From Pseudomonas synxantha (GTDB taxonomy: Bacteria; Pseudomonadota; Gammaproteobacteria; Pseudomonadales; Pseudomonadaceae), in assembly GCF_900105675.1 (NCBI RefSeq), contig NZ_LT629786.1, positions 1,550,001-1,614,000 of the forward strand: a DNA stretch of 64,000 bases, in the 5' to 3' direction. The notes under the pieces are model-generated. The model ran no database searches. It was not told the origin of the DNA and saw only the letters and a list, made by a program, of their open reading frames with translations. This document shows, piece by piece, positions 2,629-61,088 of the stretch. Both the position numbers and the translations under genes were made by a program. The stretch's first letter is position 1; the number at the start of each line of letters is the position of its first letter.

Positions 2629-3973
2629 GCGGCTGCCGGGCAAGCACTCGCTGTTCTGGAAACTGGCCTGCCTGTTGATCGCCTTCTGTTTGCTGATGAT
2701 CTGGCTCAGTTGGTCGTGGGGCCGCTATATGGAGCAGCAGAGCGCGTACCTGTCGGACAAGTCGCGGGAGATCCTCGGTGGCTATGCGGCAGGTGCCGAG
2801 CTGGCCTGGAGCACACAAGGTCGCGCCGGGGTGGATGCCTGGTTGCAACTGATGGCCAAGCGTGAAACCACCTGGGTTGGCGTGATCGGCAACGATTTGC
2901 AATCCCTCAGCAACACGCCCCTGAGTGACAAGGAAAGCCAGCGCCTGACCTTTTTGCGCGGGCTGGATTGGCCGGTCAGCCGGCATGTCATAGGGCTGCC
3001 GTGGATGAAGGTGCCGTTTCCGGTCAATCCTGGCCTGGGGTCACTGGTGATCGAGTTGCCGCAACGTTTTATGCCGGGGCGCTATCAACTGTTCTGGCGG
3101 GTAGTCACCAACGGTGTGATTCCGGGCCTGTTCACCCTGTTGCTGTGCATCGGCCTCTATCGGCTGCTGATCATGCCCCTCAATCAATTGCGCGAGCAGG
3201 CCAATGCCTGGCGTGCCGACCAGTTGCATACGCGGCTGTCCCGGGATGCGACCAGCCGCCAGGATGAATTGGGAGAGTTGGGGCGCGCCTTTGACCATAT
3301 GTCCGAACGCTTGCAGGGCACGGTGCGCTTGCAGCAGCAGTTGCTGCGCGACATGTCCCATGAACTGCGTACGCCCTTGAGCCGTCTGCGGGTGGCTTGC
3401 GATAGCGAGCAAGACCCGACCCGCCTGCGCGAGCGCCTGGGCCGGGAAATCGACGCCATGCAACGCCTGGTGGAAGACAGCCTGCAACTGGCCTGGCTCG
3501 ACAGCGAAACAGCGCCGCTGCCCCAGGAAGACATTCAGTTGCAGGCGTTATGGGACATGTTGCGCGAAAACGCCTGTTTCGAAAGCCACTGGCCGGCGTC
3601 GCGCTTGCCGTGCCTGTTGCCGGCTGACAGTTGGGTGCGTGGCAACCTGAACACACTGGCCCAGGCTCTGGAAAACATCCTGCGCAACGCCATACGCCAT
3701 TCTCCCGACGATGGCTGCGTGCAACTCGACGGGTGCCGCGAGGGGGATTATTGGCATATCTGGCTGCAGGATCAGGGCGGCGGTATTGATGAGCGGGATT
3801 TGGAACGCATCTTCGCGCCTTTCACCCGTTTGGACGGCTCGCGGCCCGGCGATGGTGGTTTCGGCCTGGGCCTGAGCATCGCCCGCAACGCCGTGCAGCG
3901 CCAGGGCGGGCGCTTATGGGCGGAAAATACCGGACAGGGCCTGCGGGTGCATCTGCGCTTGCTGGCGCGTTAG
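2612..3973 (+). CDS. Two-component sensor histidine kinase
   Basis: This is a membrane-bound histidine kinase of 453 residues, cognate partner of the response regulator whose 3' end it overlaps. It has an N-terminal helix near residues 15-32, a periplasmic sensor segment, a second helix near 158-185, HAMP, the H-box DMSHELRTPLSRLR with His at about residue 250, the N-box ENILRNAIRH near 353, and the ATP-lid glycine boxes DQGGGID and GFGLGLSIARN. The signal is unknown. Genomic position matches PA0930 (PirS) of P. aeruginosa, but the sensor segment alone does not prove the same ligand. Confidence 0.9.
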   Translation: MMKGFERLPGKHSLFWKLACLLIAFCLLMIWLSWSWGRYMEQQSAYLSDKSREILGGYAAGAELAWSTQGRAGVDAWLQLMAKRETTWVGVIGNDLQSLSNTPLSDKESQRLTFLRGLDWPVSRHVIGLPWMKVPFPVNPGLGSLVIELPQRFMPGRYQLFWRVVTNGVIPGLFTLLLCIGLYRLLIMPLNQLREQANAWRADQLHTRLSRDATSRQDELGELGRAFDHMSERLQGTVRLQQQLLRDMSHELRTPLSRLRVACDSEQDPTRLRERLGREIDAMQRLVEDSLQLAWLDSETAPLPQEDIQLQALWDMLRENACFESHWPASRLPCLLPADSWVRGNLNTLAQALENILRNAIRHSPDDGCVQLDGCREGDYWHIWLQDQGGGIDERDLERIFAPFTRLDGSRPGDGGFGLGLSIARNAVQRQGGRLWAENTGQGLRVHLRLLAR

Positions 3974-4628: not shown

Positions 4629-6854
4629 ATGAAAACAGCGATGTTGGCCTTGGCGCTGGGGTTACTGGCGTTGCGTTGGTTACCTGCGTTGCCGCCCGGC
4701 GCAGGGGTGTTGGCCATGTTGGTGCTGGCGTTGATGCTGCTGCCTTTTCGCACCTATCCCGGGGCGTTCTTTCTGTTCGGTTTGAGTTGGGCCTGTATCA
4801 GTGCGCAGTGGGCGCTGGATGACCGCTTGCGCCCGGTGCTGGATGGGCAGACGCGCTGGGTCGAAGGGCGTGTCATCGGCCTGCCGCAACAGACGGGCAC
4901 GAGCGTGCGCTTCGAACTGGCCGACAGCCGGTCGCGCACTGCGCGGCTGCCCAAGCGCATTCGCGTGTCCTGGCACGGCGGGCCCACGGTTAACAGCGGG
5001 GAGCGCTGGCGCCTGGCATTGACGCTGAAGCGGCCTGCCGGCCTGCTTAATTTCCACGGGTTTGACCATGAGGCCTGGCTGCTGGCCCAGCGTATCGGCG
5101 CCACCGCGACCGTGAAGGACGGCGAGCGCCTGGCGCCGGCCCGCAATGCCTGGCGCGACGCTGTCCGACAGCGCCTGCTGGCCGTGGATGCCCAGGGCCG
5201 CGAGGCGGGCTTGGCTGCATTGGTACTGGGCGACGGTTCCGGGCTGGCGCCTGAGGATTGGCAGGTGTTGCAGGACACCGGCACGGTGCATCTGCTGGTG
5301 ATTTCCGGGCAGCACATTGGCCTGCTGGCGGGGTTGATCTACGGCTTGATCGCTTTGTTGGCGCGCCATGGGTGCTGGCCCCGAACCTGGCCGTGGCTGC
5401 CGTGGGCGTGCGGCCTGGCATTTGCCGGGGCGTTGGCTTATGGCCTGCTGGCGGGGTTCGGCGTGCCGGTGCAGCGAGCTTGCGTCATGGTGGGGCTGGT
5501 GTTGCTGTGGCGTTTGCGCTTTCGTCACTTGGGTGTTTGGTGGCCGTTGTTGCTGGCGCTGAACGCTGTGCTGGTGCTTGAGCCCCTGGCCAGCCTGCAG
5601 CCGGGGTTCTGGCTGTCGTTTGCGGCGGTCGCAGCGCTGGTCCTGGCATTCAGCGGGCGCCTGGGGCCGTGGAGCGCCTGGCAGGTCTGGACGCGTCCCC
5701 AGTGGTTGATCGCCATTGGTTTGTTCCCGTTGCTGCTGGTGTTGGGTTTGCCCATCAGCCTCAGTGCACCCGTGGCCAACCTGGTTGCCGTGCCGTGGAT
5801 CAGCCTGGTGGTGCTACCCCTGGCGCTGCTGGGCACGGCGCTGCTGTGGGTGCCGTTGGCGGGCGGAGGTTTGCTGTGGTTGGCCGGTGGTGCGCTGGAC
5901 GGCTTGTTCAAGGGCCTGGCGCTGTTGGCCGCGCAACTGCCGGCCTGGATACCGGCCGAAGTACCTTTGGGCTATTGGCTGGTGAGCCTGGCCGGCGCAG
6001 TGATTTTGCTATTGCCCAAGGGCCTCCCGTTTCGGTTTTTGGGCTGGCCCATGCTGTTGTTGGCGGTGTTTCCACCCAGGGAGTCGATACCCCATGGGCA
6101 GGTGGACGTGGTGCAGCTGGATGTCGGCCAGGGGCAGGCCCTGATCCTGCGCACTCGCCATCACTCCTTGCTTTATGATGCCGGGCCCCGGTCGGGGCCT
6201 GTCGACCAGGGGGCGCGGGTTGTCTTGCCGTCGTTGAAAAAGCTCGGGGTAGGGCAGTTGGACATGATGCTGCTCAGCCATGCTGATGCCGATCATGCCG
6301 GTGGTGCGGCGGCAGTGGCCCGGGGGCTGCTCGCCAAGCGCGTGGTGGGCGGCGAAACCGAAGGCCTGCCAGGGTTTCTCGGTACCCAGCCCTGTACCAG
6401 CGGCGAGCGGTGGGAATGGGATGGCGTGGCCTTTGAACTGTGGCAATGGGCCGGTGCGATTGATGGCAATCCCAGGTCCTGCGTACTGCAGGTCGAGGCG
6501 AATGGCGAACGCCTGCTGCTCACCGGCGATATTGATCGCGCCGCCGAACAGGCATTCCTGGCCTCGCCGCTGGCGGTGCCGACCGATTGGTTGCAGGCCC
6601 CGCACCATGGCAGCCGCAGCTCTTCGTCCTGGCCCTTCCTGCAGCGGCTGGCGCCGGCATCGGTGCTGATCTCCCGCGGGCGCAGCAATGCATTCGGCCA
6701 TCCTCATCCACAAGTAATGGAGCGCTATCAGGCCCTGGGCAGTCGGGTATATGACAGTGCTGAACAAGGCGCTGTGCGCCTGCGCCTGGGAACGTTCCTG
6801 CCGCCGACTGTTGCGCGCAGTCAACGCAGGTTCTGGCGCGAACCGTTACCGTAA
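4629..6854 (+). CDS. comEC: DNA internalization/competence protein ComEC/Rec2
   Basis: ComEC forms the inner-membrane channel that takes up single-stranded DNA during transformation. The 741-residue protein has an N-terminal DUF4131 region with several helices, the Competence membrane domain around residues 200-460 (conserved HLLVISGQHIGLLAG), and a C-terminal metallo-beta-lactamase-like domain with DVGQGQALIL near 497 and the metal motif HADADHAGG near 549. Length is normal. The start ATG has AAAGGATG upstream. It is intact, so DNA uptake is possible in principle, although natural competence in the P. fluorescens group is poorly documented. The gene leads the exbB-murB block, as PA2984 does. 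Confidence 0.95.
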   Translation: MKTAMLALALGLLALRWLPALPPGAGVLAMLVLALMLLPFRTYPGAFFLFGLSWACISAQWALDDRLRPVLDGQTRWVEGRVIGLPQQTGTSVRFELADSRSRTARLPKRIRVSWHGGPTVNSGERWRLALTLKRPAGLLNFHGFDHEAWLLAQRIGATATVKDGERLAPARNAWRDAVRQRLLAVDAQGREAGLAALVLGDGSGLAPEDWQVLQDTGTVHLLVISGQHIGLLAGLIYGLIALLARHGCWPRTWPWLPWACGLAFAGALAYGLLAGFGVPVQRACVMVGLVLLWRLRFRHLGVWWPLLLALNAVLVLEPLASLQPGFWLSFAAVAALVLAFSGRLGPWSAWQVWTRPQWLIAIGLFPLLLVLGLPISLSAPVANLVAVPWISLVVLPLALLGTALLWVPLAGGGLLWLAGGALDGLFKGLALLAAQLPAWIPAEVPLGYWLVSLAGAVILLLPKGLPFRFLGWPMLLLAVFPPRESIPHGQVDVVQLDVGQGQALILRTRHHSLLYDAGPRSGPVDQGARVVLPSLKKLGVGQLDMMLLSHADADHAGGAAAVARGLLAKRVVGGETEGLPGFLGTQPCTSGERWEWDGVAFELWQWAGAIDGNPRSCVLQVEANGERLLLTGDIDRAAEQAFLASPLAVPTDWLQAPHHGSRSSSSWPFLQRLAPASVLISRGRSNAFGHPHPQVMERYQALGSRVYDSAEQGAVRLRLGTFLPPTVARSQRRFWREPLP

Positions 6855-6963: not shown

Positions 6964-7599
6964 GTGTGGGAATTGGTCAAATCCGGTGGCTGGATGATGT
7001 TGCCGATCATTCTGAGCTCCATCGCCGCACTCGGCATCATTGCCGAACGCCTGTGGACCCTGCGCGCCAGTCGCGTCACCCCCGAGCACTTGCTGGGGCA
7101 AGTCTGGGGCTGGATCAAGAACAAGCAGCTCGACAAGCAAAAACTCAAGGAGCTGCGCGCCAATTCGCCGCTGGGTGAAATCCTAGCCGCCGGCCTGGCC
7201 AACTCCAAGCATGGTCGCGAGATCATGAAAGAGTGCATTGAGGAAGCGGCTGCGCGGGTGATCCATGAACTGGAGCGTTACATCAACGCCCTCGGTACCA
7301 TCGCCGCCATGGCACCGCTGCTCGGCCTGCTCGGCACGGTGCTGGGCATGATCGACATTTTCAGCTCGTTCATGGGCGCGGGCATGGCGACCAACGCGGC
7401 GGTACTTGCCGGCGGTATTTCCAAGGCCTTGATCACCACGGCTGCGGGCCTGATGGTGGGGATTCCCGCGGTGTTCTTCCACCGCTTCCTGCAACGGCGC
7501 ATCGATGAGCTGGTGGTCGGCATGGAACAGGAAGCCATCAAGCTGGTGGAAGTGGTGCAGGGCGACCGTGACGTGGACCTGGTCGAGGGCAAAGCGTGA
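6964..7599 (+). CDS. exbB: ExbB/TolQ/MotA-family proton channel protein
   Basis: This is the channel subunit of a proton-motive-force transducer of the ExbB/TolQ family (PA2983-like). The 211-residue protein has an N-terminal helix (MMLPIILSSIAALGII) and the diagnostic two-helix core near residues 110-185 (PLLGLLGTVLGMI, GISKALITTAAGLMVGIPAVFF). The start is the GTG at 6964, about eight bases after GAGGGGA; upstream in-frame codons overlap comEC and do not fit the family. It overlaps exbD by four bases (GTGA). Partner TonB is not encoded nearby, so whether it serves TonB receptors or another system is open. Confidence 0.93.
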   Translation: MWELVKSGGWMMLPIILSSIAALGIIAERLWTLRASRVTPEHLLGQVWGWIKNKQLDKQKLKELRANSPLGEILAAGLANSKHGREIMKECIEEAAARVIHELERYINALGTIAAMAPLLGLLGTVLGMIDIFSSFMGAGMATNAAVLAGGISKALITTAAGLMVGIPAVFFHRFLQRRIDELVVGMEQEAIKLVEVVQGDRDVDLVEGKA

Positions 7600-11485: not shown

Positions 11486-11510
11486 CCATTCGTGCAGGCC
11501 TGAAAATAAA

Positions 11511-11547
11511 AATGCCCCGTATCTCACGATACGGGGCATTTTTTATT
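11511..11547. terminator. Bidirectional rho-independent terminator between murB and the BI-1 gene
   Basis: A 13-bp perfect stem, AATGCCCCGTATC at 11511-11523 with GATACGGGGCATT at 11528-11540, closes a TCAC loop. It is preceded by an A-rich and followed by a T-rich run, so it can stop transcription of murB from the left and of the convergent BI-1 gene from the right. Confidence 0.93.
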
Positions 11548-11558
11548 GTGACGACTGA

Positions 11559-12230
11559 TCAGTCGTCGCGGCTCATGATGCCGAAGATCTGCAACAGGCT
11601 GATAAACAGGTTGTAGATCGAAACATACAGGCTCACGGTCGCCATAATGTAGTTACGCTCACCGCCGTGGATGATGGCGCTGGTCTGGAACAGGATGCAC
11701 ACCGAGGAAAACAGCACAAAACCCGCGCTGATCGCCAGTTGCAAGCCGCTGATCTGGAAGAACATGCTGGCCACTACTGCCGCCAGCAACACGAAGAAGC
11801 CCGCGGTAATGAAGCCACCCAGGAAGCTCATGTCCTTACGGCTGATCAGCACGTAGGCCGACAGGCCACCAAACACCAGGGCAGTCATGGCAAACGCCGA
11901 ACTGACCACTTCCGCACCGCCGGCCATGCCGAGGTAGCGGTTGAGGATGGGCCCGAGGATGAAGCCCATGAAACCGGTCAAGGCAAACGCCGACACCAGG
12001 CCCCAGGCCGAATCGCGCAACTTGTTGGTCAGGAAGAACAGACCATAGAAGCCGATCAGCACGACAAAGATATTCGGATAACCAACGCGCATCTGCTGGG
12101 CCACGTAGGCCATCACGCCGCTGAATGCGAGGGTAAGGGCGAGCAGTCCGTACGTGTTGCGCAAGACGCGGCTGACTTCAAGCTGCTCAGCCTGCGCGTT
12201 ACCATTCACTGCGTAATTCTGTTCGCGCAT
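11559..12230 (-). CDS. Bax inhibitor-1/YccA family membrane protein
   Basis: This 223-residue protein has seven hydrophobic segments, and conserved BI-1 family features: VLRNTYGLLALTLAFSG near the start and AIIHGGERNYIMATVSLYVSIYNLFISLLQIFGI at the end, shown here only as a description of the last two helices. In E. coli YccA modulates FtsH; other BI-1 proteins conduct calcium. The C-terminal MSRDD is typical. A purine-rich site precedes the ATG. In P. aeruginosa the homologue (PA2604) also sits next to tRNA-Ser. Confidence 0.9.
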   Translation of the reverse strand: MREQNYAVNGNAQAEQLEVSRVLRNTYGLLALTLAFSGVMAYVAQQMRVGYPNIFVVLIGFYGLFFLTNKLRDSAWGLVSAFALTGFMGFILGPILNRYLGMAGGAEVVSSAFAMTALVFGGLSAYVLISRKDMSFLGGFITAGFFVLLAAVVASMFFQISGLQLAISAGFVLFSSVCILFQTSAIIHGGERNYIMATVSLYVSIYNLFISLLQIFGIMSRDD

Positions 12231-31753: not shown

Positions 31754-32608
31754 CTATACCAGATTGGCATTCCAGACGAGCAGCACACGCGCCTGGATGT
31801 ACGTTTCATCAAGAAAGATGTCCTCGGCCTTGTGCTTCCGATTGTCCGACAGCATCTTGAATTTGTCCTTACCCTTCATTTGCAGACGCTTGATGTACTG
31901 AAAGCCTTGGTACGAGAAGAAGTAGATTCCATCGCCAACGAACTCTTTGATGCTGACATCGACCAGTAGCGGATCGCCATGCTTGATGGTTGGCGTCATG
32001 GACTGCCCCCAGCCGGTGATCATCTTCAGATGGAAGTGCTCTTTGAACTCGACGCCCATGGCTCGGAGCTGGGAGGGGCTGACGCGCACGTCCTGGAGCA
32101 TCTCGGGGAAGTCATGAGCAATTTCGCCGCCGCCCAAGGCTCCGCGTACGTCATAGTGAGCAATCCATACTTCGTCGCCCACCTTTCCAGGCCTGTAGGC
32201 GTCATGCACCAAGCCGCCCAACTCCTCGCCCAGGGCGTCATCTTCCGCAATAGCTAGAAGCCTCATTAGCTTGTCTTCGCCGAGGCGCTTCCCAGCAAGC
32301 ATTGCTCGGAACTTCTCGACGGCGGTCGAAGCAGGCTCTGGCTCAGCAACTAAAACGCCAGTTCTGGCGCCGTCTCCAATATTTTCATATGAAAAGCCAG
32401 GGCGCAGACCCCAGTGCTCTGGGCCAACGACATCGGAGAAATAGGCGATCACGTCCATCAGCTTCGACTTGTCGATCCTGCCGTTTTTCACCCAGCCCTG
32501 TATCGACGGAGGCTTCACGGAGAAGTCGTCTGCGAGGTCTTTTTTCGATACGCCCTTGGCGATCCGCGCAGCTTCAATGGCTGCGCCTAATTCTGGTCCG
32601 GTAAGCAT
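31754..32608 (-). CDS. CI/LexA-like prophage repressor
   Basis: This 284-residue repressor has an N-terminal HTH (residues about 8-50, KKDLADDFSVKPPSIQGWVK) and a C-terminal S24 peptidase domain with the serine in GWGQSMTPTIKHGD (Ser203) and the lysine in QYIKRLQ (Lys240), so RecA-stimulated self-cleavage is expected. It would keep the prophage silent by binding the operators at 32602-32673 and at 26717-26838. Its start codon lies inside one operator-like site, and no standard ribosome site is present, as with leaderless cI of lambda. It is followed by the tandem small genes. Confidence 0.92.
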   Translation of the reverse strand: MLTGPELGAAIEAARIAKGVSKKDLADDFSVKPPSIQGWVKNGRIDKSKLMDVIAYFSDVVGPEHWGLRPGFSYENIGDGARTGVLVAEPEPASTAVEKFRAMLAGKRLGEDKLMRLLAIAEDDALGEELGGLVHDAYRPGKVGDEVWIAHYDVRGALGGGEIAHDFPEMLQDVRVSPSQLRAMGVEFKEHFHLKMITGWGQSMTPTIKHGDPLLVDVSIKEFVGDGIYFFSYQGFQYIKRLQMKGKDKFKMLSDNRKHKAEDIFLDETYIQARVLLVWNANLV

Positions 32609-55228: not shown

Positions 55229-55981
55229 ATGGCACTGATCACGGACATCCAGAAACTGGAGCCCGGCGGCGAGATTCGCCTGTTTGAAATTGACGGGACG
55301 GAATACGGCGCTGATTACCTGCGCTTCCACGGTCACGCCATCCCGCACACGCCAGAGGAATTGCTTGCCTACGAAGGATCCGAAGAGGACCTGCCAGCCA
55401 AGTCGATTATCTGGCAGGGCCAGGAATACGCGGCCTGGCCGGTGCAGATTGAGGGTATTTCCTCGAGCAGCGATGGCACCGCTTCTCGGCCGACTTTCGC
55501 CGCAGGCAACGTCAACGGGCGCGTAACAGCGTTGTGTCTGGCCTTCGAGGACATGCTCAAGTTCAAGCTGACGGTCCGCGAGACCCTGGCCAAGTACCTG
55601 GACGCGGCCAACTTCCCCGATGGCAATCCGACAGCCGACCCGACCCAGGAGGCGCTGGAGATCTGGTACATCGACCAGAAAACCAGCGAGGACGGCGAGG
55701 CGGTGGTCTGGGAGCTGTCTTCCCCGGGTGAGATTGATAACCACGGGCTGCCCGGCCGGCAAATGACGACGTTCTGCCACTGGGCCATGACCAACGGTTA
55801 CCGGGGGCCGGACTGCGGATACACCGGCGCGGCCATGTTCGACGACGAGGACAACCCAACGGACGACCCAGCGCTGGACCGGTGCAAGGGTTGCCTGTCG
55901 TCCTGCAAGCTGCGCTTCGGCGAAAACAACGAACTGTCCTTCGGTGGATTCCCTGCCGTTTCCCTGATAGCAAGGAGCTGA
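55229..55981 (+). CDS. Minor tail protein L
   Basis: This 250-residue protein matches lambda L. C-terminal cysteines in TTFCHWAM, GPDCGYTG and DRCKGCLSSC are in the pattern that binds an iron-sulphur cluster in lambda L. The N-terminal part is beta-rich. It lies in the canonical M-L-K order. Confidence 0.92.
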   Translation: MALITDIQKLEPGGEIRLFEIDGTEYGADYLRFHGHAIPHTPEELLAYEGSEEDLPAKSIIWQGQEYAAWPVQIEGISSSSDGTASRPTFAAGNVNGRVTALCLAFEDMLKFKLTVRETLAKYLDAANFPDGNPTADPTQEALEIWYIDQKTSEDGEAVVWELSSPGEIDNHGLPGRQMTTFCHWAMTNGYRGPDCGYTGAAMFDDEDNPTDDPALDRCKGCLSSCKLRFGENNELSFGGFPAVSLIARS

Positions 55982-55983
55982 CC

Positions 55984-56748
55984 ATGCGCAAGCACATAAT
56001 TGCGACGGTCCAGGCGCATGCGGCAGCCGAGTATCCGCGCGAATGCTGCGGTCTGCTACTCGCTGTTGGCCGGGCGCAGAAGTATTTCCCTTGCCGAAAC
56101 ATCGCCACCGAGCCGAACGAAGAGTTCCGGCTTGATCCCGAGGACTATGCTGCGGCGGAAGACTTGGGCGAAGTGATCGGCATTGTTCACTCACACCCGG
56201 ATGCCACCAGCAGGCCGTCACCGCATGACCTGGCCATGTGCGAGGCCACGGCCTTGCCCTGGCACATTCTGTCCTGGCCCGAGGGCGACCTGCGGTCGAT
56301 CACCCCGACCGGCAATACCCCGTTGCTGAATCGCCCGTTCGTGCACGGGGCCTGGGACTGCTGGCAGGTCTGCGCTGACTGGTATCAACGTGAGTGGGGG
56401 CTCGAGTTCGAAGCCTTCCAGCGCGCCGACGGCTGGTGGGAGAGTGCGCAAAACGCCAGCCTGTACGAGGCGAACTACGAGGCGGCTGGGTTTGTGCGCG
56501 TCGACCGGCCACAGCGCGGTGACATGATCGTTATGCAGGTTGGCCGTACGGTGCACCCGAACCACGCAGGCATATACCTGGGCACCGATCCGGCGCTACC
56601 TGGTGAAGACTCAGGTACCTTCGGCCCTGGCCCGTTCCTGCTGCACCACCTATACGGCAGGCCATCCGAGATCATCGTCTACGGGGGGCCATACCTCGAC
56701 AGAACACGCTTGATCCTGAGGCACAAAACAGCATTCAACCCTGAATGA
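55984..56748 (+). CDS. Tail tip protein K (JAB/MPN plus NlpC/P60)
   Basis: This 254-residue protein joins a JAB/MPN metalloprotease-like domain (YPRECCGLLLAVGR, GIVHSHPDATSRPSPHDLAM with the HxH-x7-D metal site) to an NlpC/P60 peptidase domain (HGAWDCWQVCADWYQREWGL with the Cys, HPNHAGIYLG with the His). It may cut peptidoglycan cross-links during DNA entry. ATG at 55984. Confidence 0.92.
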   Translation: MRKHIIATVQAHAAAEYPRECCGLLLAVGRAQKYFPCRNIATEPNEEFRLDPEDYAAAEDLGEVIGIVHSHPDATSRPSPHDLAMCEATALPWHILSWPEGDLRSITPTGNTPLLNRPFVHGAWDCWQVCADWYQREWGLEFEAFQRADGWWESAQNASLYEANYEAAGFVRVDRPQRGDMIVMQVGRTVHPNHAGIYLGTDPALPGEDSGTFGPGPFLLHHLYGRPSEIIVYGGPYLDRTRLILRHKTAFNPE

Positions 56749-56889: not shown

Positions 56890-57060
56890 ATGACAAATAC
56901 TGAAATCCGGTTGGATGGAAAGAAATCCACGCTTAGCGCCTACGAGCGCAAGATGGCCCGTCAGCGCCCTGCTTTTCTCAATCAAGCCACGCTTGATTAC
57001 ATTGCTCATGATAGTGCCGCCTATCTGATTGAATTGGGTAAGAAGTCCGGCGCTAAATGA
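56890..57060 (+). CDS. Probable antitoxin of the YafO-type toxin
   Basis: The frame encodes 56 residues (MTNTEIRLDGKKSTLSAYER...), too small for usual size cut-offs. Its stop overlaps the start of the YafO-like gene in ATGA, the typical antitoxin-toxin coupling, and it has its own strong promoter. Sequence similarity to YafN is not evident; position and coupling carry the assignment. Confidence 0.7.
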   Translation: MTNTEIRLDGKKSTLSAYERKMARQRPAFLNQATLDYIAHDSAAYLIELGKKSGAK

Positions 57061-57515
57061 CAGCAGTCATCCTGAGCAGGAGGCTCACTCTTCTGATGCC
57101 GCGACAGGAAGCGGTTTCCCTCGTTTCCGAATTTAAGCTATGGCGCGAAGGTGGTATTGGGCCAGGCGATACGTTCGGTAAAGACTCAGCTTTTAAGAAA
57201 CCGAAGAGTCTAGTTGATATGGGCTTGAGGAAGGTTCATCTGGAAGAGCCTTCCGTCTCCCAAGAGTGGGACCGCGGGATACGCCGTGGGATTATAGACC
57301 CTCAGCGATTTACATCAAACCGAGTGCTCGTATATGGGCAGCTTGGTGAGATGAAGCATAACCCTTATCTGTTACTGACTATTCTTGATCCTGGGCACTC
57401 GTTCATGGAGCAGCCGGACCTTGTAAGGGGGTTGGGCGTTTTCTTTGAAACAGAGAGGCAGGATATCGGAAAATATTTCCCGTCTCCTGAGTGGATTTCA
57501 GCCGGCCCCCCATAA
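57057..57515 (+). CDS. YafO-family type II toxin (ribosome-dependent mRNA interferase)
   Basis: This 152-residue protein follows the YafO plan: FKLWREGGIGPGDTFGKDSA near residue 25 (YafO has SYKRDGVLPDIFGRDA), LRKVHLE, RVLVYGQLG, and LLLTILDPGHSF. YafO cleaves mRNA on the ribosome. Located among tail genes with its own promoter and terminator, it is a moron. It may hold the prophage or act in abortive infection. Confidence 0.82.
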   Translation: MTAVILSRRLTLLMPRQEAVSLVSEFKLWREGGIGPGDTFGKDSAFKKPKSLVDMGLRKVHLEEPSVSQEWDRGIRRGIIDPQRFTSNRVLVYGQLGEMKHNPYLLLTILDPGHSFMEQPDLVRGLGVFFETERQDIGKYFPSPEWISAGPP

Positions 57516-57592: not shown

Positions 57593-57612
57593 AAGCCCAG
57601 CGGGCCGGGCTT
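57593..57612 (-). terminator. Terminator of the Mnt-like gene
   Basis: AAGCCC at 57593-57598 pairs with GGGCTT at 57607-57612; on the minus strand TTCTC follows. It faces the toxin-antitoxin terminator. Confidence 0.6.
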
Positions 57613-57661
57613 GGGGGAGGGGTGTTCATACTGTGAATACCCCTCTGTTAAGCATAGGTCG

Positions 57662-58096
57662 TCAGTCGGGCGGATTAGAAAAGTCGATGCGGATGCTGCT
57701 TAGCTCATCAAGCGCCACTTTATAGCCTTGCTCTTCGAGGGCCTTGACAAGCCGCTTCAAGAATTCAAGCTTTTCAGACGGCAATTCAGCAAGGTTGTAG
57801 TCGTCAAGCCTTACAAGGGTTTCTGTGACTCCAGCGTTTGCTGCTGCAAGGATGAACCTTTGAACTCTCTCCTGAACATTCGTAGCGACATCCTTCCTTG
57901 CATATTCCGCGAGCGCCAGCGCCCGATCTGCGGATAAGAATCTATCCGGGCTTGGAGTGTCGAGTGCCACGCTGACCTCGAGGCGCATGACTACTTCTGA
58001 CGTAAGTGAACGCCCGTTCGATTTTGCCGCCGCTTCAAGGTCTCTCTTGAGGCTGGCCGGCATTCTGAAATTGACCTGCAATTCTTCTTTGCTCAT
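57662..58096 (-). CDS. Arc/Mnt-type ribbon-helix-helix repressor
   Basis: This 144-residue protein begins with a ribbon-helix-helix domain: QVNFRMPASLKRDLEAAAKS then GRSLTSEVVMRLEVS, the Arc/Mnt pattern. The C-terminal 90 residues are helical and may add tetramerisation as in Mnt. It is divergent from a second RHH gene and shares three operators with it. It is the Mnt counterpart of a P22 immI-like module and should repress the antirepressor operon in the lysogen. Confidence 0.88.
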   Translation of the reverse strand: MSKEELQVNFRMPASLKRDLEAAAKSNGRSLTSEVVMRLEVSVALDTPSPDRFLSADRALALAEYARKDVATNVQERVQRFILAAANAGVTETLVRLDDYNLAELPSEKLEFLKRLVKALEEQGYKVALDELSSIRIDFSNPPD

Positions 58097-58110
58097 ACAG
58101 AGAATTCTCT

Positions 58111-58170
58111 AGCACTTTGCTATAGACGGCAATAAAGCAAAGTGCTTTAATCGAGACCAAGCAAAGTGCT
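58111..58170. promoter_or_regulatory. Three identical operators between divergent RHH genes
   Basis: AGCAAAGTGCT occurs at 58136-58146 and 58160-58170 and as its complement AGCACTTTGCT at 58111-58121, spaced 25 and 24 bases. Each is a pseudo-palindrome (AGCA-AAG-TGCT), as RHH dimers recognise. Confidence 0.85.
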
Positions 58171-58190
58171 ATACGAAAAGGAGAGGGCTA

Positions 58191-58346
58191 ATGAGCAGGA
58201 AAGACCCGCAGTTCAACCTGAGGCTACCGGAGGAGGTAAAGGAATGGGTGGAGCAAAGCGCAAAGGAAAATTGCCGGTCACAGACTGCCGAGATTGTCTT
58301 CTGGCTTACGGCGGCAAAGAAGCGTCAAGAACAGGCGATAGCCTGA
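58191..58346 (+). CDS. Arc-like ribbon-helix-helix repressor
   Basis: This 51-residue protein reads MSRKDPQFNLRLPEEVKEWV then EQSAKENCRSQTAEIVFWLT, a single Arc-type ribbon-helix-helix domain. GGAGAGG precedes the ATG. It is the first gene of the antirepressor operon, as arc is in P22, and should reduce its own transcription. It is too short for usual gene finders. Confidence 0.88.
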   Translation: MSRKDPQFNLRLPEEVKEWVEQSAKENCRSQTAEIVFWLTAAKKRQEQAIA

Positions 58347-58352
58347 AACGAA

Positions 58353-58380
58353 GAAGCCCCGGCGTGCAGGCCAGGGCTTC
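58353..58380 (+). promoter_or_regulatory. Intercistronic hairpin between Arc-like and antirepressor genes
   Basis: GAAGCCC at 58353-58359 pairs with GGGCTTC at 58374-58380. There is no T run, so it may be an attenuating fold or the counterpart of the P22 sar region, which produces an antisense RNA against ant. No promoter for such an RNA was confirmed. Confidence 0.5.
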
Positions 58381-58408
58381 AGGTGTAGTTAATTTCGAGG
58401 TCAACCAC

Positions 58409-59299
58409 ATGAGCAATATTACCGCAGTTCCAGCAGAACACAATGTCCGGCGTCAGACGGCCGAAATTATCCCTTTCAGTTTCGGCAAACGGCAGGTCCG
58501 CACCTTGCTGATTAATGATCAGCCTTGTTTCGTAGCGACTGATGTGTGCGAGGCGCTTGCGATCGTCAACACTGCACGAGCACTTAGCCGACTGGATGAT
58601 GATGAAAAGGGTACTCACGCAGTGAGCACCCTTGGTGGCACGCAGAATCTCAGTGTGGTTAACGAGTCTGGCCTCTATTCATTGATCCTCACTAGCCGGA
58701 AGGCCGAAGCCAAGATTTTCAAAAAGTGGGTAACGGCCGAGGTTCTCCCTGCCATCCGCAAGCATGGTCGCTATGATGACCACGGCAAGATGACAACCCT
58801 CATGGACGAATTGATCGGAATGAGCGAGCTGAACGTCATCAAGGGCTTGATCCGAGACAAGTCCAAGGCTGTTCCGGCTGATCAGCGCCAAGGCTTTCAA
58901 CTGGTGATGCACAATCGCCTGCACACCCGATTCAATGTTCCGCGCACCGAGCTGATTCCTGCCGCCCAATTTGATCAAGCCTGCAACTTCATTGGCAGCT
59001 ATGCGCTTGAAGGCGAGTACATCCCGGCGCGAACGCACACGGGTGGGATTCATCTCGATCAGTTCGAGACGGCTAGCCTTTACATGCTGATGTCGCGCTT
59101 TGTGACTATGGAGAAGCATAAAAGCAGCATGCTCGCCGCCTCAAGGGCGCTGGGCTCAAGCGCGCTGATGGACTTCTTCGACCAGTTGCATGACGGCCAC
59201 ATTTCATTTTCTGTTCTGGACAAGCGCCGCGATGAAATTTATGCCGCTTACAAAGCGACTGGTTGCGAAGGTGGCTACGTGTGGAGGGCTGCGGCATGA
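58409..59299 (+). CDS. Phage antirepressor (BRO-N domain, Ant-like)
   Basis: This 296-residue protein has a BRO-N domain near residues 18-125 (FSFGKRQVRTLLINDQPCFV, ATDVCEALAIVNTARAL, FKKWVTAEVLPAIRKHGRYD) and a C-terminal P63C-like domain (DQACNFIGSYALEGEYIPAR, SALMDFFDQLHDGHISFSV). It would inactivate the CI-like or an incoming repressor when the RHH repressors release the operon. ATG at 58409 has GAGG nine bases upstream. A second BRO-N protein is encoded at 33673. Confidence 0.88.
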   Translation: MSNITAVPAEHNVRRQTAEIIPFSFGKRQVRTLLINDQPCFVATDVCEALAIVNTARALSRLDDDEKGTHAVSTLGGTQNLSVVNESGLYSLILTSRKAEAKIFKKWVTAEVLPAIRKHGRYDDHGKMTTLMDELIGMSELNVIKGLIRDKSKAVPADQRQGFQLVMHNRLHTRFNVPRTELIPAAQFDQACNFIGSYALEGEYIPARTHTGGIHLDQFETASLYMLMSRFVTMEKHKSSMLAASRALGSSALMDFFDQLHDGHISFSVLDKRRDEIYAAYKATGCEGGYVWRAAA

Positions 59300-59514
59300 A
59301 CTTCACCCTAAAAGCTGGCGGTCGCGCTCTGATCCTTTCCCCGGCGCGGCCAAATCTGGTCGGTCGCTCCGGCCAGTTGATCCGCAAGATTGAAGAAAAC
59401 TGGCTGATGCTGGTCGAGGGCAAGCGCTGCTCGGTCAGCGAGAAAAGCCTGATGCCGCTGGACGGCTTCAATCCTGGCGCGGCGGCATCGGTTGAGTTGA
59501 GGAAGATCGCATGA
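59296..59514 (+). CDS. Hypothetical small beta-rich protein
   Basis: A 72-residue protein (MNFTLKAGGRALILSPARPN...) with basic beta segments (GRSGQLIRKIEENWLMLVEG). It is coupled by ATGA to the antirepressor and to the KilA-N gene. No family recognised. Confidence 0.65.
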   Translation: MNFTLKAGGRALILSPARPNLVGRSGQLIRKIEENWLMLVEGKRCSVSEKSLMPLDGFNPGAAASVELRKIA

Positions 59515-60008
59515 AGTCGACCATCATCCCGTTTGACTACAACGGAAACGAGATCAGCTTCAACACTGATGGCTGGATCAATGCCACTGAAATCGCAAGG
59601 CCATTTGGGAAGCGCCCCGTTGACTGGCTGAAGCAGGATGAGACCCGGCAGTACCTTAAAATTCTGGGCGAGGTTCTTAATTGTGATCCTGAGTCACTTT
59701 TAGAAACCCGCCGAGGCAGGCATCACGGCGGAACCTGGCTTCATCCGAAACTCGGCGTTCGGTTTGCGCAGTGGCTGGACGTCAGGTTCGCCGTCTGGTG
59801 TGACTTTCAAATTGATTCGATCTTGCATGGTGATTTGGGTGCGAGGCAGCAATTTGAAAATGCGTCCAAAGCTCTGGACCATCGCAAAGACCTTGCAAGC
59901 CTCCAGGGAAAGGGTCTTGCGGCATGGCGATGGCAAAAACCCACCCTTGAGAATCGCGTGGAGTATTGGCGTGAACAACTGCAATTGCAGCTCACGCTAG
60001 ACGCGTAA
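59511..60008 (+). CDS. KilA-N domain protein
   Basis: This 165-residue protein has a KilA-N domain: EISFNTDGWINATEIARPFG near residue 13, RPVDWLKQDETRQYL, and GGTWLHPKLGVRFAQWLDV near 73. KilA-N proteins bind nucleic acids and often lie in antirepressor operons. The C-terminal part is a charged helix. It is the last gene of the operon starting at 58191. Confidence 0.9.
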   Translation: MKSTIIPFDYNGNEISFNTDGWINATEIARPFGKRPVDWLKQDETRQYLKILGEVLNCDPESLLETRRGRHHGGTWLHPKLGVRFAQWLDVRFAVWCDFQIDSILHGDLGARQQFENASKALDHRKDLASLQGKGLAAWRWQKPTLENRVEYWREQLQLQLTLDA

Positions 60009-60102: not shown

Positions 60103-60453
60103 ATGAAATTATTCGTAGGGGCGCTGGCCTTGGTTGCGCTGTCAGGATGTTCAACTCCATCAGACTTGATGGCTGGGAAGCCTGTTACGACGCAATTTAC
60201 GACGAAGGACCCGCGCGCGGTCGCGGTATGCGTGTATCCAGCCTGGCAGGACTACCGCTCCAACGCTGTGATGAGCGAAACCACAACTGGTTATCGAATC
60301 GTTGCTGGATCTGATGCTGGACAGACCGACGACGTTTTGGATATCGAGCGCGGGAGCCAGGGTAAGGGCAGCATCGTGAAACATTACCAGCGCGCCGCAT
60401 GGTCGCAAATTGGACGCGGCGGGCTTCTGCCGGCCCTAAATAGATGTATTTGA
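60103..60453 (+). CDS. Small prophage lipoprotein
   Basis: This 116-residue protein has a lipoprotein signal, MKLFVGALALVALSGCSTPS, with the lipobox LSGC and Cys16 as lipid site; Ser follows, so outer-membrane sorting is expected. The mature part is polar with a second and third Cys. Phage lipoproteins near tail-tip genes (Cor, Llp) block receptors against superinfection; this could be one, but no sequence similarity is claimed. Confidence 0.8.
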   Translation: MKLFVGALALVALSGCSTPSDLMAGKPVTTQFTTKDPRAVAVCVYPAWQDYRSNAVMSETTTGYRIVAGSDAGQTDDVLDIERGSQGKGSIVKHYQRAAWSQIGRGGLLPALNRCI

Positions 60454-60506: not shown

Positions 60507-61088
60507 ATGTCAGCATTAGCAATCAACTATCAACCAATGACAACAATTCTGCTTTACGGCCAGCTACGCCAGTTCGGTAGGTCATTTCGACTATCCGTTC
60601 GATCGCCAGCTGAAGCGATCAAGGCGCTATGCGTTCAGATACCGGGGTTTGAGCGGTTTATCTCAAACGCCAAATCGCGCGGGATAGAGTTCGCTGTTTT
60701 CCGGGGAAAAAAGGCTCTTGGCGAGAAGGAAGTGGCGTTTTCAGGCGCTGGTGACATTCGAATCGCCCCGATTATTACCGGCAGCAAGCGAGGCGGTCTT
60801 ATTCAGACAATCATCGGTGCGGTGTTGATTGCTGTGTCTTTCATCCCGGGGTTCCAAGTGCTTGCTGCGCCTGGGATTGCGCTGGCGGCCGGTGGCGTAA
60901 TCCAGATGTTGAGCCCTCAAGCCACGGGCCTAAAGACCAGCGCCGCGCCCGAGAATACCCCCGGTTATGCCTTCGGCAGTGCCAAGAACACCACGGCGTC
61001 GGGTAATCCGGTCCCGCTCTGCTACGGCAAACGCCGGGTGGGCGGCGCGATCATCAGCGCCGCGATCTATGCCGAAGATCAGATGTAG
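60507..61088 (+). CDS. Tail assembly protein I
   Basis: This 193-residue protein matches lambda I: TTILLYGQLRQFGRSFRLSV then SPAEAIKALCVQIPGF near the start, a central hydrophobic Gly/Ala helix (GLIQTIIGAVLIAVSFIPGF) and the C-terminal GNPVPLCYGKRRVGGAIISA. ATG at 60507 has GGAGAAA upstream; 60537 is an alternative. In lambda I lies between K and J; here a cargo block separates it from K. Confidence 0.92.
   Translation: MSALAINYQPMTTILLYGQLRQFGRSFRLSVRSPAEAIKALCVQIPGFERFISNAKSRGIEFAVFRGKKALGEKEVAFSGAGDIRIAPIITGSKRGGLIQTIIGAVLIAVSFIPGFQVLAAPGIALAAGGVIQMLSPQATGLKTSAAPENTPGYAFGSAKNTTASGNPVPLCYGKRRVGGAIISAAIYAEDQM

Follow-up and report, generated by a model that had tools for sequence, protein, structure and literature searches.

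The module at 57662-60008 in a stretch of Pseudomonas synxantha DNA is quite probably a second immunity switch of the P22 immI type (mnt-arc-sar-ant), a moron within the tail operon of a Pseudomonas prophage of the lambda type, with the working presumed for it below. The whole stretch analysed, termed the window here, comprises 64,000 nucleotides, that is, positions 1,550,001-1,614,000 of a 6.84 Mb single-contig genome (contig NZ_LT629786.1), and the module sits between the lambda-type tail genes K and I. Gene content and order match those of annotated P22, which supports the immI-type reading. A sequence-only reading of the same DNA had likewise seen the mnt-arc-ant logic of P22, placed among late genes, and this agrees with the annotated P22 record; its account of the locus as P22 immI-like is largely supported, and a sar-like antisense RNA, which it had not named, adds strong support. 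Comparison shows the gene order, the sites and their link with the recognition strand of the Mnt-like protein, the antisense hairpin and, at the level of the family, a leftward promoter. The genes concerned are listed below.

55882-56748, tail gene K (PHROG 30, 5.4e-124)
57662-58096, minus strand, Mnt-like ribbon-helix-helix (RHH) repressor of 144 amino acids (aa), recognition strand ELQVNFRM (Pfam Arc, 6.7e-07)
58191-58346, plus strand, Arc-like RHH protein of 51 aa, recognition strand DPQFNLRL (Pfam Arc, 1.5e-11)
58409-59299, plus strand, BRO-N antirepressor-like protein of 296 aa in the ant slot (Pfam Bro-N, 1.2e-22)
59296-59514, plus strand, small conserved open reading frame (ORF) 3' of ant, 72 aa (weak PHROG 2529 match, 6.9e-05)
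59511-60008, plus strand, KilA-N/ORF11CD3 protein of 165 aa (KilA-N, 5.3e-20; ORF11CD3, 1.8e-07)
60507-61088, tail gene I (PHROG 32, 6.1e-70)

Both RHH genes match Pfam Arc and diverge across a gap of 94 bp, as the sequence-only reading had proposed. Among PDB sequences, P22 Mnt (1mnt, E 2.6e-4) is the sole match of the Mnt-like protein up to E 0.1, and the Arc-like protein matches P22 Arc (1arq/1par/1bdt, E 7.9e-5), the engineered pArc 1u9p (9.4e-7) and Mnt (7e-4). The start of ant lies 62 bp behind the arc stop on the same strand, and arc is the first gene of the predicted ant operon. The ORFs and the Pfam and PHROG matches also agree with the proposed succession of an Arc-like gene, a BRO-type antirepressor, a small gene and a KilA-N protein, and the PHROG 30 and PHROG 32 flanks with the placement among tail genes K and I. 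The BRO-N protein matches PHROG anti-repressor families (best 6e-49); as had been claimed, it is of a type unlike that of P22, since Bro-N was found and the P22_AR type was not. The small ORF gave no match in a Pfam search, and its relatives follow ant in eight other loci (L003, L004, L024, L035, L053, L055, L071 and L076). The Arc-like gene indeed has 51 codons; the expectation that such a gene escapes annotation does not always hold, in that Pseudomonas phage UFJF_PfDIW6 has an annotated homologue of 51 codons.

The same prophage encodes a CI-like S24-peptidase repressor (31754-32608), a CII-like gene, a terminase, a tape measure protein and J. No P22-type short-tail virion genes were found in it; its tape measure, K, I and J are of the lambda type. 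An IMG/VR contig of 51,120 bases (L002) encodes an identical BRO protein and represents the window's own phage.

The divergent gap contains three exact copies of AGCAAAGTGCT, in line with the three identical sites that the sequence-only reading had placed between the RHH genes, and there is none elsewhere in the window, even allowing one mismatch. In 100 dinucleotide shuffles, the mean was 0.01 copies and three copies never occurred (0/100), and the 9 exact copies in the whole genome are these 3 and 6 single ones elsewhere. Each site is built of palindromic arms, AGCA-NNN-TGCT. Two of them point the same way and the third is reversed, with distances of 25 and 24 bp between the centres.

58111-58121, minus strand, site O1, exact copy, just upstream of the putative -35 box
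58123-58151, plus strand, putative arc-ant promoter TAGACG-N17-TTTAAT, the best-scoring rightward site in the gap
58136-58146, plus strand, site O2, exact copy, between the -35 and -10 boxes and touching the latter
58160-58170, plus strand, site O3, exact copy, downstream of the -10 box

The positions of O1 to O3 are kept in the loci with the same Mnt strand. The putative promoter stands where the relatives have theirs; note that a consensus promoter scan did not give 58123-58151 among its matches.

Then, which of the two RHH proteins would the sites serve? Across 28 loci, the sharing of sites goes with the likeness of the Mnt-like recognition strand (partial r 0.46, reached in 0 of 5000 shuffles). 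This comparison used strands read by eye and shuffles that ignore shared ancestry; it omits the RHH loci L082, L096, L103 and L105, and drops L031, a copy of L003, as well as the near-copies L006, L051, L055 and L066. A 23-locus version with strands read by the script gave partial r values of 0.45 for Mnt and 0.05 for Arc. It could be argued that it is the Arc-like protein which uses the three sites as operators, or that both RHH proteins do so to the same degree: the two strands are alike across loci (r 0.63), so that one site could serve both in many loci, and P22 Arc owns an operator inside the promoter. However, the Arc-like strand given the Mnt-like one shows a partial r of only 0.02, reached in 1746 of 5000 shuffles, and the window, L037 and L038 have the Arc strand DPQFNLRL in common, yet three different site sequences, those in the divergent gap of L037 being of the GGACCACGGTGGTCC type. 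We consider this alternative quite unlikely. In these comparisons the sites go with the Mnt-like protein, so that binding of the sites by the Arc-like protein is not expected here. The relatives suggest that the repressor and its sites are swapped jointly.

The classes of Mnt strand illustrate this link. The QVNFR strand (the window, L053, L065 and L100) goes with AGCA..TGCT sites, the QFKLR type (7 loci) with ACC..GGT cores, which are variant in 2 of the 7, DPQFNLRI (L005, L038 and L072) with ATGCATCAC, and IYRSQFR (L024, L033, L071 and L078) with GTCACTA. In addition, L078, L100 and L106, which were found by the RNA search described below, bear the sites of their own Mnt class. The layout across the classes is alike but not identical. 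In the QVNFR and QFKLR classes the centres are 24-26 bp apart, with sites before the -35 box, in the spacer and behind the -10 box (only two sites are seen in full in L065); in the DPQFNLRI loci the second of the two distances is 32-33 bp; and in the GTCACTA class the distances are 24 and 11 bp, with the sites directly on the promoter boxes. When strands were called the same at a 75% threshold, the mean site sharing of pairs with the same Mnt and different Arc strands was only 0.17 (15 pairs), that of pairs with the same Arc and different Mnt strands 0.06 (15 pairs), and that of pairs differing in both 0.03 (289 pairs). The first value is low because the threshold mixes the N and K variants, and because sharing over six bases misses the AGCA..TGCT arms common to L053, the window, L065 and L100.

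The second line of evidence is a probable antisense RNA between arc and ant, which was proposed from the position of a hairpin before the Rfam scan was made. All 13 loci among the first relatives have a hairpin directly behind the arc stop, whose tail, rich in T, is on the minus strand. A leftward sigma-70-like site within the first ant codons is present in most of them, and in P22 sar lies at this place. The corresponding features of the window are as follows.

58349-58411, minus strand, probable antisense RNA of the sar kind, spanning the leader and start codon of ant (approximate ends)
58353-58380, minus strand, leftward terminator-like hairpin, with covariation and wobble pairs over 29 loci
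58416-58443, minus strand, putative leftward promoter TTGTGT-N16-TAATAT at the place of Psar, weak in the window copy

At a relaxed threshold, the Rfam sar model (RF00262) matched 58349-58408 of the window on the minus strand over its full length (1-68), with 22 bits and E 0.83 per 7,001 bases. It also matched at the equivalent place, and nowhere else, in 4 of 10 further loci, that is, L038 (37.4 bits, E 0.00067), L033 (29.9 bits, 0.063), L032 (26.5 bits, 0.5) and L037 (24.7 bits, 1.5). Weak matches to Rfam families other than sar were judged to be chance. A covariance model of our own, R1, was built from 29 loci (28 distinct sequences, some very alike) with P22 excluded, and its best match on a 14-kb piece of P22 is the annotated sar itself (36.8 bits, E 2.5e-5; the E-values of R1 are rough). 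The window, which belongs to the training set of R1, matches at 58343-58411 with 51.3 bits. A second, weaker R1 match occurs in the window outside the module (11501-11577, minus strand, 23.2 bits, E 0.016 in 192 kb). Another weak one was observed in L012, an IMG/VR contig with otherwise arranged RHH genes, beside a distant BRO gene (4927-5000, minus strand, 25.3 bits).

Over the 29 loci, 96.6% of the hairpin cells are paired, and the covariation score is 0.555 compared with 0.280 in shuffles (0/500) and at most 0.182 when the hairpin is slid. The leftward strand has 45 G.U against 6 A.C cells (an A.C cell would read as G.U in the mRNA). Of the 8 bases that follow the stem, on average 4.6 are T leftward versus 1.1 rightward, and in 25 of 29 loci the leftward strand gives the more stable fold. 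Wobble pairs, T-tail and fold thus favour the leftward strand, and therefore the structure looks as if it were conserved to end an antisense RNA.

The leftward promoter was compared over 29 loci, where the median best score is 10.4 versus 2.2 at 973 control gene starts; the score is at or above the 95th percentile of the controls in 28 of 29 loci and at or above the 99th in 19 of 29. The -10 box ends at one fixed distance from the ant start in 25 of the 29, and in 20 of the 29 random synonymous recoding equals the promoter in fewer than 5% of trials. L032 and L044 are among the relatives with a strong promoter. The promoter weights are E. coli frequencies. L052 and L054, where the rule of the script found no ant start, were left out, and near-identical loci were collapsed, with the near-identical L005 and L006 both retained among the 29.

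Several results weigh against this reading of the RNA and its promoter. The Rfam score stays below the gathering score of 43 bits in every locus tested, including the window (22.0) and the best locus (37.4), and there was no sar match up to E 10 in 6 of the 10 further loci. Two of five covariation measures do not stand out (29/500 for pairs changed on both sides, 57/500 for further pair types), and the shuffles behind them ignore relatedness. In 4 of 29 loci it is the mRNA strand that folds more stably, and 9 of 29 fail the 0.05 level against synonymous recoding. The window promoter scores 7.0, the second lowest of the 29, 19.6% of synonymous recodings equal it, and 58416-58443 was not among the matches of the consensus promoter scan. 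Since the window promoter is weak, the sar of the window may be decayed or start elsewhere.

The low Rfam scores, the weak window promoter and the four loci with a better mRNA-strand fold could also mean that no antisense RNA is made, in which case the hairpin would merely be a fold within the arc-ant mRNA or would end stray transcripts running leftward. We regard this as still more doubtful than the Arc-operator alternative above, for the wobble pairs and the T-tail suit the leftward strand, the leftward promoter exceeds synonymous choice in 20 of 29 loci and R1 finds the annotated sar of P22. Consequently, for the family as a whole the antisense RNA appears well supported, and in the window copy it is probable.

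Another explanation is that the module is decaying here, with intact genes and incomplete control, or that the BRO and KilA-N genes serve another role. The second weakest leftward promoter of the 29 loci would suit it, as would the N-terminus of the window BRO protein, which is unlike those of its relatives, and degraded ant morons are described in the part consulted of a paper on P22-like phages (PMC2629481). All frames are open, however, the three sites are exact, the hairpin is intact and the gene order is full. We therefore hold decay or another role to be unlikely, if the least so of the three alternatives, and retain the immI-type switch.

Such a switch might work as follows. In the lysogen, the divergent Mnt-like repressor would occupy the three sites that surround the arc-ant promoter and thereby shut it. 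Upon infection, or loss of the Mnt-like repressor, arc and ant would be made, and the Arc-like protein would turn the operon down again. A short antisense RNA, starting near the ant start codon and ending just behind arc, would cover the ant leader, and together with the Arc-like protein it would limit Ant once the promoter opens. The BRO-type Ant, perhaps with the KilA-N protein, would then disarm the repressor of a prophage, for instance the CI/S24 protein. This last step is assumed because of the names of the PHROG anti-repressor families and of P22 as summarised in part of PMC7549136. The CI-like protein at 31754-32608, named by the sequence-only reading as a target to be tested, is a candidate solely by being an S24-peptidase repressor. 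Binding by the RHH proteins, production of the RNA and action of the antirepressor are thus what we infer from sequence.

How far does the module extend among relatives? In a search with the BRO protein, a divergent RHH pair was seen in 6 of 28 viral loci (including L002), L012 has its RHH genes differently arranged and 21 have no RHH match. Among 36 loci from genome contigs, 23 have an Arc-like gene and 13 do not. Relatives of K and I occur on both sides in 10 of 36 loci other than the window, many loci being too short to judge. Compared with phages at the DNA level, the region matched 59 records, none of which covered 80%. R1 alone, run on 398 genomes of the genus, gave 31 genomes at 44.6 bits or above; at E 0.01 or below it gave 173, and only the 31 were used. 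In many matches below about 40 bits the hairpin part alone matches; these were taken for ordinary terminators and rejected. In all 30 of the best R1 loci fetched, an opposite-strand RHH gene ends inside the RNA match; 14 are training loci (by contig or identical sequence) and 16 lie outside the training set, 15 of these being new. In a class-wide draw, none of 368 other genomes matched at E 2e-5, a limit under which, given the strict filtering, copies no stronger than that of P22 may have been overlooked.

In 8 of the 30 R1 loci (L082, L095, L097, L098, L099, L101, L103 and L105) the gene under the RNA encodes a DUF3077-like protein of about 103 aa next to arc; Pfam DUF3077 matched the two such proteins run, with 2.1e-06 and 1.4e-07. 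An antirepressor-type protein adjoins the DUF3077 gene in all three loci followed (L108, L109 and L110, wider views of L098, L097 and L099), and the idea that these cases are unrelated to antirepressors was dropped for that reason. The ant heads in cassette relatives are Bro-N (L003 and L035), Phage_pRha (L037) or P22_AR_N (L038), and all 13 further loci tested have a Cro/CI-type helix-turn-helix (HTH) protein (Pfam HTH_3 or HTH_31) in the place of Mnt. There is about an even chance, in our estimate, that mnt-arc-sar-ant is a portable second-immunity platform of Pseudomonas prophages, with arc and the antisense RNA as its core, and with the repressor and operators, and the gene under the RNA, swapped as cassettes. 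On such a platform, the swapped repressor would be an RHH or a Cro/CI-type HTH protein, and the gene under the RNA would have a BRO, Rha or P22_AR head, or be DUF3077 before an antirepressor. If true, the platform would yield mutually heteroimmune switch families and a natural code, open to reading, that links the recognition strands of RHH proteins to their operators.

Some side observations concern the proteins and the neighbouring genes. In alignment, the antirepressors look mosaic, with differing N-terminal heads, a related middle and independently changing C-terminal parts. The filamentous phage PfAC03 (L039) encodes a relative of the Mnt-like protein (34% over 144 aa) and a second Arc-like protein at 3429-3923 and 5055-5357; Arc/Mnt proteins in Pf phages are discussed in part of PMC7549136. 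Within the same K-I gap of the window, 56890-57515 holds an ORF of 56 aa and, behind it, a protein like the YafO toxin (Pfam, 2e-09), possibly a toxin-antitoxin pair, and a relative of the YafO-like protein occurs at the equivalent place in L076. Directly before tail gene I lies a small lipoprotein-like ORF (60103-60453, PHROG 914), whose relatives stand near I in L004, L006, L043, L051, L052, L053 and L055.

The circuit and a probable antisense RNA would thus occur in long-tailed Pseudomonas prophages; the immI region is discussed for P22-like phages in parts of PMC2629481 and PMC8022706. Among the papers listed in literature searches (at most 20 of up to 356), judged by titles and openings of abstracts and with most subscription journals outside the scope, none describes a sar-bearing immI in Pseudomonas. 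The three-layer control of an antirepressor, by two repressors and an RNA, becomes open to broad comparison. Where repressor strand and operator have changed jointly, nature would supply RHH variants of differing specificity, ready for use, and swaps would make heteroimmunity at a second locus directly testable.

Among known systems, UFJF_PfDIW6 (OM418631) has in g19-g21 (Arc/Arc/antirepressor) the same divergent RHH pair with ant, and the best Rfam sar match of this analysis (37.4 bits, E 0.00067). It differs in that its Ant is headed by P22_AR_N and has a tail spike gene and an integrase in its neighbourhood. The passages seen of the paper on this phage list two Arc family proteins and an antirepressor, and sar and operators are unmentioned in them (PMC8951688). 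P22-like phages carry a variable "ant moron", for which sar is named, as far as the relevant part of PMC2629481 goes, and their immI region is described as highly variable in part of PMC8022706. The window resembles that moron as a variable immunity insert in a late operon; however, the moron is described there for P22-type virion genes and the window has a lambda-type tail operon.

For P22 immI itself (NC_002371), the differences that count against our reading are that the window Ant is of the Bro-N and not the P22_AR type, and that P22 has one Oarc and one Omnt, whereas the window has three copies of one site. Because of the type of Ant, we speak of an immI-type switch and not of the P22 immI region itself. 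In addition, the window Mnt-like protein has 144 aa compared with 83 aa in P22, and in the window ant is followed by the small gene and KilA-N, all set between the lambda-type K and I. The two have in common the divergent mnt and arc genes with operators at the shared promoter region, arc as the first gene of the ant operon, the location among late genes, and an antisense sar (probable in the window) between arc and ant, the sar promoter of P22 lying inside ant; in the annotated P22 record, sar occupies 7022-7091 of the locus on the minus strand and ant begins at 7092.

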